The notes under the pieces are model-generated. The model was given only the letters and a program-made list of their open reading frames with translations. It did no database searches and had not been told where the DNA came from. Shown piece after piece: positions 55,168 to 58,995 of a DNA stretch of 64,000 nt; the first letter of the stretch is position 1, and every line of letters begins with the position of its first letter. This stretch comes from Dyella sp. RRB7 (GTDB lineage Bacteria > Pseudomonadota > Gammaproteobacteria > Xanthomonadales > Rhodanobacteraceae): NCBI RefSeq assembly GCF_022761115.1, contig NZ_JAKWJS010000004.1, positions 124,001 to 188,000 on the forward strand, given 5' to 3'. The translations under genes and the position numbers were made by a program.

Positions 55168-55797
55168 TCAGGACCGGTGCGGCACGAAACGCAGCGCCAC
55201 CGAGTTCATGCAATAGCGCAGGCCCGTCGGCGGCGGGCCATCGTCGAACACATGGCCGAGGTGACTGTCGCAGCCGGCACAGCTCACCGCCGTGCGTTCC
55301 CAGCCGAAACTGGTATCGAGCTTCTCGATCACATTGGTCTTGGCGATGGGCTGCCAGAAGCTGGGCCAGCCGGTGCCCGAGTCGAACTGGGTGGCGGCAT
55401 CGAACAACGCGGTATCGCAGCCCGGGCAGCGGTACAGGCCTGGCACCGCGGGTTTTTCGTGCTGTCCGCTGAAAGCGCGCTCGGTGCCGTCGCGGCGCAT
55501 GACATAGAAAGCGTCATCCGACAGCCGCTGATGCCACTGCGCCTCGGTGAGTACCAGCTTGCGCACATGGCATGACCCCAGGTGACGGCCATCGTCGGCG
55601 AAGCACTCCAGCAACACGTCCTGACCTTGCGCGGCGAGTGTCGTTGGCGCCGCCGCCATGGCATCGCCAATCCATGGCGCGCGCCCGAACAGGCGTGGCA
55701 GCAGCAAGCCACCCACGGCCGCCATGGCGCCTCCGGTGATCGCCGCACGCAGAAAGCGGCGGCGTTCCAGCCTTACGATGTCCTGGGTACGGGACAT
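55168..55797 (-). CDS. msrB: Tat-exported peptide-methionine (R)-S-oxide reductase MsrB
   Basis: A 209-aa methionine-R-sulfoxide reductase. A twin-arginine signal (RLERRRFLRAAITGG, res 10-24) gives periplasmic location, unlike cytosolic MsrB. The domain has zinc Cys pairs 124/127 (YRCPGCD) and 173/176 (SCAGCDSHLGHVF), the GTGWPSFW motif and catalytic Cys196 in RYCMNSV. It lies 30 bp downstream of dipZ on the same strand. DipZ probably supplies the reductant it needs outside the cytoplasm. Expression is likely controlled by the promoter-like element before dipZ. Confidence 0.94.
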   Translation of the reverse strand: MSRTQDIVRLERRRFLRAAITGGAMAAVGGLLLPRLFGRAPWIGDAMAAAPTTLAAQGQDVLLECFADDGRHLGSCHVRKLVLTEAQWHQRLSDDAFYVMRRDGTERAFSGQHEKPAVPGLYRCPGCDTALFDAATQFDSGTGWPSFWQPIAKTNVIEKLDTSFGWERTAVSCAGCDSHLGHVFDDGPPPTGLRYCMNSVALRFVPHRS

Positions 55798-55827: not shown

Positions 55828-57549
55828 TCAACCAAAGGTGAAGGCGTAGGCCTGTACGCCCGGGTCGAGGAAGGTGATTTCAAAGGTGCGTTCGCCGGTG
55901 CCATGGGCCTGGCGCACCAGCTGGTACAGGCGCTGCGCCGTAACGGTGCCGTTACCGTCGGCATCGGTGTCCATGCCGTGATCGGCGCCGGGCGCCTTGC
56001 CGTCGATCGACACGCGGAAGCGCACCGGCTTGCCGTCGTTGCCAGGGCCCAGCACCAAATGCAGGTCGCGTCCGCGGAAGCGATAGACGATGCGGCCGTT
56101 GGCGCGTTCGAGCACGGCGTTCTCGTCGCGCACCGTCCAGCGGCCGTCCAGCGCCCACTGGTTGGTCATCAGCGTGGCCGGCGCGTGATAAGTCCACGCG
56201 TCATCGTGGGCCACCCGGCCACCGGCGAAGTTCTCCGCGCGGGCATAGCCCACGTAGGTTTCCGGTGAGCGTGTCGCATCGCCGGAGCCCGCCGCTTCGG
56301 CACCCTGCGCACCCGGCTGCACATAACCGCCCGGCAGGTTCTTCTGGCCGGCCTCGGTGAGCAGCTGGCGGATCACGTCCTCGCTCTGCGCGTAGTCGCC
56401 TTCGCCGAAATGGTGGTGACGGATACGGCCTTGCGTGTCGATGAAGTAATGCGCGGGCCAGTACTCGTTGTTGAAGCCCTTCCAGATGGCGTAGTCGTTG
56501 TCGAGCGCGACCGGATAGTCGACGCCCAGATCCTTCACGGCCTTGATGACGTTCTGCGGTTCTTTCTCGAAGGCGAACTCCGGCGCATGCACGCCGATCA
56601 CCACCAGGCCGTGGTCCTTGTACTTGTCGGCCCAGGCGTGCACGTAGGGCAGCGCGCGGATGCAGTTGATGCAGGAGTAGGTCCAGAAATCGACCAGCAC
56701 CACCTTGCCGCGCAGCGACTGCACCGTCAGTGGCGGGCTGTTGAGCCATTGCGTGGCACCCGCCAGCGACGGCAGCTCGCCCTCGATCGGCAGCGGTTCG
56801 CCAGCCTGCACCACCGGCTGCGCTGCCGGTGCGGGACGTGTGGCGTCGATCAGCTTCTGCTCGATACCGCCCGTGCTGGCCAGCGACACGCGCGTCAGCA
56901 AGCCGGTATCGACACCTAGCGCGATCATCGCCACACCAGCCAGCACCAGCACGCCAAGCGCACGCCGCAGCCACTCGCCGGCACCCAGCGAGCGCTTCAT
57001 CAAGGCGAACACCCGTCCGCCGATGATCAGCGCCAGCGCCAGCGAGGTTGCCGAGCCAGCGGCATAGGTGAGCAGCAGCAAGGTGGTCTGCACGCTGGCG
57101 CCATTGAGCGCTGCGCCGGTCAGCAATAGCCCGAGGATCGGTCCCGCGCACGGCGCCCACAGCAGGCCGGTAGCGACGCCAAGGCCCGCGGCGGACCACA
57201 CCGAATCGCCCTCGGCATCCGAGCGTTGCGTGAGCTTGTTGCCCAGCGCCACGAACGGGCGGCTGATCCATTCCGCCAGATGGCTGGAGAGCAGGGTGAG
57301 GCCGAGGATGGCCAGTACCACCATGGCGACGATGCGGCCGTACTGGTTCGCGCGGATGGCCCAGCCGCCGCCCACCGCCGCCAATGTGGCGACCAGGGCG
57401 AAGGTCAGCGCCATGCCCAGCAGCATGGGCAGGCCATTGCGCGCGAACGGACGGTCGGCCCGGGCGAACACAAAGGGCAATACCGGCAGGATGCACGGGC
57501 TGAGGATGGTCAGCACACCACCGAGGTAGGCGAGGATCAGCACAAGCAT
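55828..57549 (-). CDS. dipZ: DipZ-type thiol-disulfide transporter (CcdA + TlpA-like + C-terminal domain)
   Basis: A 573-aa three-part protein. Res 1-220 form a CcdA-like membrane electron transporter with its two cysteines in LSPCILP (Cys19) and WAPCAGP (Cys134). Res 265-400 are a periplasmic TlpA/AhpC-type thioredoxin domain with CINC (Cys293, Cys296) in DFWTYSCINCIR. Res 430-573 form a beta-rich C-terminal domain as in DipZ. It moves electrons from cytosolic thioredoxin to periplasmic targets. AAAGGA stands nine bases before the ATG. A GTAACC-N16-CGAA element lies just upstream, and msrB follows in the operon. Confidence 0.93.
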   Translation of the reverse strand: MLVLILAYLGGVLTILSPCILPVLPFVFARADRPFARNGLPMLLGMALTFALVATLAAVGGGWAIRANQYGRIVAMVVLAILGLTLLSSHLAEWISRPFVALGNKLTQRSDAEGDSVWSAAGLGVATGLLWAPCAGPILGLLLTGAALNGASVQTTLLLLTYAAGSATSLALALIIGGRVFALMKRSLGAGEWLRRALGVLVLAGVAMIALGVDTGLLTRVSLASTGGIEQKLIDATRPAPAAQPVVQAGEPLPIEGELPSLAGATQWLNSPPLTVQSLRGKVVLVDFWTYSCINCIRALPYVHAWADKYKDHGLVVIGVHAPEFAFEKEPQNVIKAVKDLGVDYPVALDNDYAIWKGFNNEYWPAHYFIDTQGRIRHHHFGEGDYAQSEDVIRQLLTEAGQKNLPGGYVQPGAQGAEAAGSGDATRSPETYVGYARAENFAGGRVAHDDAWTYHAPATLMTNQWALDGRWTVRDENAVLERANGRIVYRFRGRDLHLVLGPGNDGKPVRFRVSIDGKAPGADHGMDTDADGNGTVTAQRLYQLVRQAHGTGERTFEITFLDPGVQAYAFTFG

Positions 57550-57581: not shown

Positions 57582-57607
57582 TTCGATGGCTACCGGCTGG
57601 CGGTTAC
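57582..57607 (-). promoter_or_regulatory. ECF (SigF-type) promoter of dipZ-msrB
   Basis: On the minus strand GTAACC (57602-57607), 16 bases, then CGAA (57582-57585). The start point would be near 57575, about 26 nt before the dipZ ATG, an ideal position. The same element with one mismatch occurs on the opposite strand 13 bp away. It matches the motif I recall for Caulobacter SigF (GTAACC and CGAA, 16-bp spacing). Confidence 0.75.
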
Positions 57608-57620
57608 CTGTCTGGCGGAA

Positions 57621-57646
57621 GTAACGCATGGGCCGACCGGCGCGAA
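57621..57646 (+). promoter_or_regulatory. ECF (SigF-type) promoter of the sigma-nrsF pair
   Basis: On the plus strand GTAACG (57621-57626), 16 bases, then CGAA (57643-57646), followed by TA as in the divergent copy. It would drive the sigma factor gene itself, giving autoregulation. The leader to the GTG at 57755 would be about 100 nt, or shorter if an upstream ATG is used. Confidence 0.7.
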
Positions 57647-57754
57647 TACCAGGAAGACCCGCCAACACCTGCGCCCATGCCTCCCAGCTTGACCACTACC
57701 GGCACAATGGTTCTAGATAGCGTCTTTCCCGTATGGGCAAGGACCGATGCTGCC

Positions 57755-58336
57755 GTGAGCGACGTCACCACCAGCGCCAGCGATTCGCCGGAACGACGAC
57801 GCGCAGCGTGGATGGCGGAGGCGCAAGCGGGCGACCGGCGCGCCTACGAGCGGGTGCTGGCCGAGTCCGTGCCGTTGATTCGTGCTGCCGCGCGGCGCCA
57901 GGGCGTGCCGATCGATCATGTGGATGATGTGGTGCAGGAAACCCTGCTCGCCGTGCATCGCGTCCGTCACACCTATGATCCGGCCCGTTCCTACGATGCC
58001 TGGCTCAGCGCCATCGCCAGCCGGCGCGCGGTCGACGCCTTGCGCAGCCAGGGGCGGCGGGGGCGGCGCGAACTGCATGACGAGCATGCGTTCGATACGC
58101 ATGCCGACGTGGATGACGCCACCGCGTCGACCGAGCGGGAACAAGACGCACGCCGCCTGCGCGAGGCCATTGCGGCACTGCCGCCAGGACAGCGCGAGGC
58201 CGTCGAACAACTAGGCCTCAAGGAGCGCTCGCTGGCCGAAGCCGCTGCCATTACCGGGCGCCAGTCGGGTGCCTTGAAAGTGAACCTGCATCGCGCCCTG
58301 AAGGCGCTGCGCACCCGTTTCCATGGAGATCCCTGA
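57755..58336 (+). CDS. ECF sigma factor (SigF/EcfF-like)
   Basis: A 193-aa ECF sigma factor. Region 2 has AGDRRAYERVLAESVPLIRAAARRQ, DHVDDVVQETLLAVHRVRHTYDP and YDAWLSAIASRRAVDALR. Region 4 reads ALPPGQREAVEQLGLKERSLAEAAAITGRQSGALKVNLHRALKAL in helix-turn-helix order. The GTG at 57755 is preferred (AAGGA 11 bases upstream); ATGs at 57677 and 57707 would add N-terminal residues without recognisable domain content. The next gene, five bases on, is its NrsF-family anti-sigma factor. Divergent dipZ-msrB is the likely target. Confidence 0.92.
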   Translation: MSDVTTSASDSPERRRAAWMAEAQAGDRRAYERVLAESVPLIRAAARRQGVPIDHVDDVVQETLLAVHRVRHTYDPARSYDAWLSAIASRRAVDALRSQGRRGRRELHDEHAFDTHADVDDATASTEREQDARRLREAIAALPPGQREAVEQLGLKERSLAEAAAITGRQSGALKVNLHRALKALRTRFHGDP

Positions 58337-58341
58337 GCATC

Positions 58342-58995
58342 ATGTCCGAGCCGCGACTCACCGAGTCACTGATCCAGTCGCTGGGCGAACAGCTCACGCC
58401 GGTGCGGCGGTTGCCGCCACCGTGGCTGCGCACGGCGGGCTGGCTGCTGGCCGTCGCGGCGATTGCGACCTGGCTGCTGGCGCACTATGGCATCGCCGGC
58501 ATGCTCCGGCGCTGGAGCGGCACGCCGGACCTGGCCATGGCCGGCATCGGCGCCGTGATCACCGCCGTGTGCGCCGCCTGGGCTGCTTTCGCGCTTGGCG
58601 TGCCGGGGCGTTCGGCACGCTGGGCCTGGCTGCCTCTGCCGGGCCTGTTGCTTTGGGTGAGCGCCAGCGGCATGGGCTGCCTGCGCCAATGGGTGGCACC
58701 GGCCACGCACGTGGCCAGCCTGCCCGAAGCGAACGACTGCCTGGTCTTTATCATCAGTTTCTCGATACCGCTGTCGGCGCTGCTGATCCTGTTGCTGCGT
58801 CGGGCTTGTCCGCTGCGGCCGGTGCTTACGGCGGTGATGATCGGTTTGGCCAGCGCGGCCGCATCGGCCGGGTTGCTGGAGATCTGTCATTCCTTCGACT
58901 CGACTGCCACCGATTTGATGATGCATGCGCTGGCCGTCGCCATCGTGGTTGCCGTCAATGCCGCCATGGGCGGCCGCCTGCTGCAGCCCAGGTGA
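58342..58995 (+). CDS. nrsF: NrsF family anti-sigma factor (DUF1109)
   Basis: A 217-aa membrane protein with six helices (about res 29-49, 64-86, 94-114, 133-153, 160-181, 192-212), the DUF1109/NrsF layout. Cysteines include Cys133 (EANDCLVF) and Cys182 (LEICHSFDSTATDLMMH), placed like the two conserved Cys reported as needed for sensing in Caulobacter NrsF (about 131 and 181, from memory). It should hold the ECF sigma factor at the membrane and release it when the cysteines are oxidised or bind metal. Cotranscribed with the sigma gene. Confidence 0.9.
   Translation: MSEPRLTESLIQSLGEQLTPVRRLPPPWLRTAGWLLAVAAIATWLLAHYGIAGMLRRWSGTPDLAMAGIGAVITAVCAAWAAFALGVPGRSARWAWLPLPGLLLWVSASGMGCLRQWVAPATHVASLPEANDCLVFIISFSIPLSALLILLLRRACPLRPVLTAVMIGLASAAASAGLLEICHSFDSTATDLMMHALAVAIVVAVNAAMGGRLLQPR

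Follow-up and report, generated by a model that had tools for sequence, protein, structure and literature searches.

Paired ECF16-type promoter boxes between a sigma factor-nrsF operon and dipZ-msrB point to a predicted periplasmic methionine sulfoxide repair regulon in Rhodanobacteraceae

Sigma factors of ECF group 16 have been described in several alphaproteobacteria. In the available text of these reports, they autoregulate from a characteristic promoter and are restrained by a DUF1109 protein whose cysteines are needed for its normal function (PMC3511200, PMC3420878, PMC8315932). The regulon of one such factor, in Bradyrhizobium japonicum, is described in the part of PMC3420878 consulted as including Msr proteins together with a DsbD-like/thioredoxin pair proposed to donate electrons to periplasmic Msr. 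The sigma group, its promoter and its Msr and DsbD-like targets are thus already known from alphaproteobacteria. Among the papers listed by searches of the openly licensed literature, none concerned this system in Rhodanobacteraceae, and none combined Dyella with a sigma factor and methionine sulfoxide reductase. Here, we describe a related locus in a 64-kb stretch of the Dyella sp. RRB7 genome, hereafter the window.

On the plus strand, the window carries an ECF sigma gene which, in its shorter reading, starts at GTG 57755 and extends over 57755..58336 (193 aa), and, in its longer reading, starts at ATG 57677 (219 aa). The protein contains sigma-70 regions 2 and 4 only (Sigma70_r2 and Sigma70_r4_2 matched, Sigma70_r4 falling below cut-off). 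Beginning 5 nt after it, nrsF (58342..58995, plus strand) encodes a membrane anti-sigma factor of the DUF1109/NrsF type (PF06532, 72.9 bits against a cut-off of 26.8), for which simple hydropathy gave six hydrophobic segments at two thresholds and five at a third, set against the six transmembrane segments of group 16 anti-sigma factors. Regions 2 and 4 only, an adjoining DUF1109/NrsF gene and two conserved NrsF cysteines approximately 50 residues apart (C133 and C182) are all features of ECF group 16, as is the tGTAACc-N16-CGAA promoter, by the consensus quoted in the accessible part of PMC3420878, that is present before the sigma operon. Among 80 aligned NrsF proteins, C113, C133 and C182 are conserved in 80, 80 and 77, respectively. 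C133 and C182 were matched by position, rather than by alignment, to the C131/C181 and C129/C179 pairs given in the available text of the reports on relatives, and by position C182 is likely a sensor cysteine. All of five more distant NrsF proteins retain C133, three retain C113, and none has a cysteine at the position of C182. We also observed that C113 constitutes a third cysteine as conserved (80/80) as the pair reported for relatives.

Divergently, on the minus strand, lies dipZ (55828..57549), followed after 30 nt by msrB (55168..55797). DipZ has a CcdA/DsbD-type membrane domain fused to a CxxC thioredoxin-like domain (CINC, at 293) and a C-terminal domain, the architecture that defines its class; its profile matches are DsbD_TM, Redoxin and Thioredoxin_10, and it also matches the solved DipZ chains 5cyy (E 2.8e-68) and 2hyx (E 1.1e-67). 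MsrB is a peptide-methionine (R)-S-oxide reductase (TIGR00357, 160 bits against a cut-off of 113.05; SelR) that contains RYCMN and, near its N-terminus, RRRFLRA, which we take to be a Tat-like export signal. Profile matches to the sigma-70 regions, NrsF, DsbD_TM and SelR bear out the gene context given by the initial annotation, which was made from the sequence alone.

That annotation had also proposed two back-to-back SigF-type promoters between the operons, and exact matches were found for both: GTAACC-N16-CGAA on the minus strand before dipZ-msrB (57607-57582; GTAACC 57607-57602, CGAA 57585-57582) and GTAACG-N16-CGAA on the plus strand before sigma-nrsF (57621-57646; GTAACG 57621-57626, CGAA 57643-57646), each a predicted ECF16-type promoter. 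Their -35 hexamers are 13 bp apart, and in both TA directly follows CGAA. Across the 64-kb window these are the sole matches to GTAACS-N15..17-CGAA, for which 0.18 were expected, and only 1 of 100 shuffles of the window contained at least two. The genome-wide search that had been suggested as a check was run in the RRB7 genome, where the motif is not enriched over a reversed control: the N16 form has 10 matches (7 forward, 3 reverse) compared to 10 for the control, and the looser GTAACN-N15..17-CGAA has 34 compared to 69. Counting the motif genome-wide was therefore dropped as a means of finding the regulon, being uninformative alone, and conservation across genomes was used instead. Because motif and control matches are equally frequent, a single match carries no weight, but the pair does: by arithmetic from the match counts, approximately 0.0005 back-to-back pairs within 100 bp are expected per genome, in line with the annotation's view that two coordinated copies are unlikely by chance. 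The case consequently rests on position and conservation, both of which are strong.

To assess conservation, a scan of the genome collection recovered 85 relatives (those with names being chiefly Dyella, Rhodanobacter and Frateuria); the 80 best of these, together with the window, make up 81 loci. In 71 of these dipZ is directly divergent from the sigma gene and in 4 msrB is; of the rest, 3 have dipZ 1.1-2.1 kb off, and in the last 3 the stretch examined gave no match to dipZ or msrB. The sigma-side box, with a spacer of 16, is present in all 81. Loss of the paired boxes from relatives that keep the gene order had been named as evidence against the proposal, and in the 75 loci with divergent dipZ or msrB (window included) both the sigma-side box and the partner-side box are found in 75/75, compared to no locus with both boxes in 200 shuffles of these regions; being relatives retrieved by way of the sigma gene, these loci are not independent. 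The partner-side spacer is 16 in 71 loci, at the usual place in 70 and 198 bp from the assigned dipZ start in one (L117), and 15 in 4 (L063, L088, L094 and L097); any other spacer from 8 to 25 occurs in at most one locus per strand. The TA after CGAA, although present in both boxes of the window, did not hold as a general feature: T follows CGAA in 97% of 72 partner-side boxes but only 65% of 75 sigma-side boxes, and A occupies the next position in 79% and 40%, respectively. The gap between the boxes ranges from 12 to 294 bp across loci, implying that the surrounding DNA has changed while the boxes have not. An apparent helical phasing of the -35 gap (raw R 0.51 at 10.5 bp, 75 loci) did not survive when repeated gap values were collapsed (31 values, R 0.14, p about 0.56), and was set aside.

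Between the plus-strand box and the sigma gene lies a second conserved element, TTGACC-N18-CTAGAT (57689-57718, plus strand), which is present as a single copy in the RRB7 genome. In an 80-locus analysis of start codons, from which the distant locus L115, lacking dipZ, was left out, TTGAC is found in 80/80, 63-69 nt before a likely start codon that is GTG in 70, ATG in 6 and TTG in 4, and CTAGAT is found in 53/80. A sigma-70 scan gave no match to the element. It may serve as a basal promoter, encode part of an extended sigma protein, or do both, and its conservation suggests that the box is not the only driver of the sigma operon. Taken further, the sigma-side box could be minor and the operon read mainly from TTGACC-N18-CTAGAT, leaving only dipZ-msrB and msrA (see below) dependent on the sigma factor. 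The presence of TTGAC in all 80 loci, 63-69 nt ahead of the likely start, counts in favor of this explanation, but we consider it distinctly unlikely, given that the sigma-side box is itself in 81/81 loci, that the element does not fit the sigma-70 scan, and that relatives, in the available text of the reports on them, autoregulate from a box-type promoter.

The same element bears on where the sigma protein begins. The longest open reading frame in the sigma frame starts at ATG 57548, upstream of both boxes, and was discarded for that reason, and an RNA hairpin between TTGACC and GGGTC, considered by eye, was dropped since the window sequence breaks it. The reading frame is open through the second element in 80/80 loci, and the interval running from 12 nt ahead of TTGAC down to the short start is free of in-frame stops in 80/80, while shuffles of these two stretches placed a stop in about 31 and 18 loci; further upstream, in-frame stops are about as common as expected (13 compared to 15.7). 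These observations, together with the GTG, ATG or TTG at the short start of every locus (GTG making up only 72% of Val codons in the gene bodies), speak for an arrangement of two nested promoters. The stress promoter at 57621-57646 would yield a long form from near ATG 57677, whereas the short form from GTG 57755 would come from a constant promoter at 57689-57718, and the sigma factor made in the feedback loop would then differ at its N-terminus from that of resting cells. Opposing this arrangement, changes before the short start show no third-position excess (77, 75 and 69), the ATG at the long start is missing from some loci, and ribosome-site matches before the short start, in 15/80 loci, are at control level (1 to 25 at control offsets), although these matches are uninformative in that dipZ, too, has one in only 8/70 loci. 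On balance we regard two N-terminal forms as unlikely. Extra sigma-strand boxes were also seen near the likely short start, at -14 from the position of the window GTG in L081, L095 and L116, and with one mismatch in L112.

Outside the sigma locus, the pattern in its CGAATA form recurs in 20 genomes of the genus, and the gene behind the recurrent site is msrA. In the RRB7 genome, msrA lies at 202490-201786 of contig G000:C16, on the minus strand, with its box at G000:C16:202583-202558, and by our own reading of the sequence its product has a lipoprotein-like N-terminus. The sigma gene is borne by 90 genomes, including one (G058) in which it is split over two contigs, and 87 of these were examined at msrA; the other three (G069, G128 and G174) have no msrA match listed. 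An exact box is present upstream of msrA in 87/87 sigma-bearing genomes (54/54 and 33/33), compared to 0/43 sigma-less genomes (0/16 and 0/27), a part of the sigma-less genomes with an msrA match that includes one stretch of 160 bases (L245) and some incomplete genomes. The association also holds inside a single genus (g24), with the box in 4/4 genomes that have the sigma gene and 0/7 that do not. A search for NrsF in 22 sigma-less genomes, including the first 16 msrA controls, found it in none, and in one sigma-less genome (G183) the usual position before msrA is taken by a near match, GTAACC-N16-CGTA. These comparisons bear on whether another ECF sigma factor in the same genome might use the boxes. 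Other such factors do exist, as six sequences in the RRB7 genome match the sigma query at E <=0.001, but sigma-less genomes hold other ECF sigma factors as well and nonetheless lack the msrA box, and the promoter matches that reported for the NrsF-paired group in the published text consulted, making recognition by a different factor highly improbable.

A gene for a secreted beta-propeller-like protein has the same box upstream in 6/20 genomes of the genus (L170, L183, L184, L276, L277 and L278). One such protein was tested and gave a weak Lactonase match. This gene is a possible further regulon member, and among the sites listed for the RRB7 genome none lies before it.

Seven loci in which dipZ lies 1-2 kb from the sigma gene (L040, L086, L096, L020, L022, L024 and L026, with L022 repeating L040) speak to whether the two boxes function together or apart; L010-L038 were not counted with L039-L118 because of species overlap. 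In 7/7, the sigma gene keeps the sigma-side box next to it, and dipZ is preceded, at 58-59 bp, by the other. In G134, the box likewise precedes dipZ even though that gene is on a different contig. The box was present before dipZ in 0/7 sigma-less genomes, six of which (all but G184) were searched for NrsF, and before the second dipZ copies of sigma-bearing genomes in 0/9 cases. In most of the seven loci with genes intervening between dipZ and the sigma gene, these include an ORF of 215-277 aa starting MKK, which by eye resembles a secreted outer-membrane-type protein. In two sigma-less genomes, msrA adjoins dipZ on the same strand (G057:C8:35206-37694 and G072:C17:3699-6313), with no box before either gene.

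The best reading of this comparison is that the two boxes are separate promoters, not one element. It would otherwise be possible to see GGTTAC-N13-GTAACG as an inverted repeat that serves as the lone operator of a dimeric regulator, with CGAA incidental, as roughly 40% of the loci carry the two GTAAC words in inverted orientation with 13-14 bp between them. However, the variable gap of 12 to 294 bp, the parting of the halves where genes intervene, the CGAA that accompanies each GTAAC at a spacer of 16 (or 15), and the single box of msrA together render this explanation extremely improbable. Chance resemblance, for which the 10 genomic matches and the equal control could be cited, is refuted by conservation at the sigma locus and msrA, leaving it a negligible probability.

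Based on the data presented above, it is very probable that an ECF16-type sigma factor, paired with an NrsF anti-sigma factor, activates its own operon and a regulon for periplasmic methionine sulfoxide repair comprising DipZ, MsrB and MsrA. While sequence comparison shows that the boxes exist, that they are conserved and that they go with the sigma gene, activation of the sigma operon and of dipZ-msrB by the sigma factor is a prediction. In unstressed cells, membrane-bound NrsF would hold the sigma factor; by analogy with relatives, an oxidant outside the cytoplasmic membrane, probably sensed via the NrsF cysteines, would lead to its release. The freed sigma factor could then direct RNA polymerase to three targets, namely the sigma-nrsF operon, the oppositely oriented dipZ-msrB operon and the unlinked msrA, with transcription, as well as the electron flow and export that follow, modeled on relatives. 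Exported MsrB and MsrA would repair oxidized methionines with electrons that DipZ would convey across the membrane. This interpretation is favored by the boxes staying with their own operons, by the restriction of the exact msrA box to sigma-bearing genomes, and by the same promoter and autoregulation in relatives, as given in the available text of PMC3511200, PMC3420878 and PMC8315932. It is weakened by the lack of genome-wide enrichment of the motif, the non-independence of the loci, the second conserved element, and the replacement of C182 in the five distant NrsF proteins. If correct, a small regulon would tie an oxidant-type sigma factor to the whole periplasmic methionine repair chain in Rhodanobacteraceae, namely, an electron shuttle and both stereospecific reductases.

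Compared with described systems, as presented in the portions of the cited papers available, a close parallel is EcfF-OsrA of B. japonicum, an autoregulated ECF group 16 factor that also has a DUF1109 anti-sigma factor and whose targets, like those predicted here, include methionine sulfoxide reductases and a DsbD-like shuttle (PMC3420878). It differs in its box, GTAAC(g,a)-N14-15-(c,t)CG(t,a), and in its shuttle, which consists of two proteins (bll1027-26) rather than one fused DipZ; in addition, here dipZ lies back to back with the sigma operon and is followed by msrB. SigF-NrsF of Caulobacter crescentus shares the exact GTAACC-N16-CGAA, as the initial annotation had stated, along with the autoregulation of sigma-nrsF predicted here, and a neighboring operon, CC3254-3257, has a very similar promoter (PMC3511200); from the gene numbers, we infer that sigF and CC3254-3257 are divergent. 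The SigF targets differ, in that they include operons for DUF2063 proteins, and msrA homologs are described in that part of the paper as unchanged in arrays. BcrS-AbcS of Brucella melitensis is an autoregulated ECF16 factor that also has a DUF1109 anti-sigma factor and similar elements (TGTAAC and GCGAAT/GCGAAA), and it responds to hypochlorous acid, but its main target is bcrXQP and its regulon is larger, at 36 genes (PMC8315932). Perchlorate islands, as here, place sigF/nrsF beside periplasmic methionine repair, and some also carry exported MsrA and MsrB, but they employ a methionine-rich peptide (MrpX) and YedYZ instead of DipZ-MsrB (PMC4623255). Finally, other gammaproteobacterial NrsF loci (L141-L145, L147 and L148) also have ECF16-type boxes, on both strands in L141-L145, with the outward box facing, by eye, bufferin-like small secreted ORFs or a cytochrome-b-like ORF. 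The paired layout is therefore not special to Rhodanobacteraceae, while the attached module differs, which suggests that different lineages have attached different protective modules to ECF16 sigma factors as a reusable switch.
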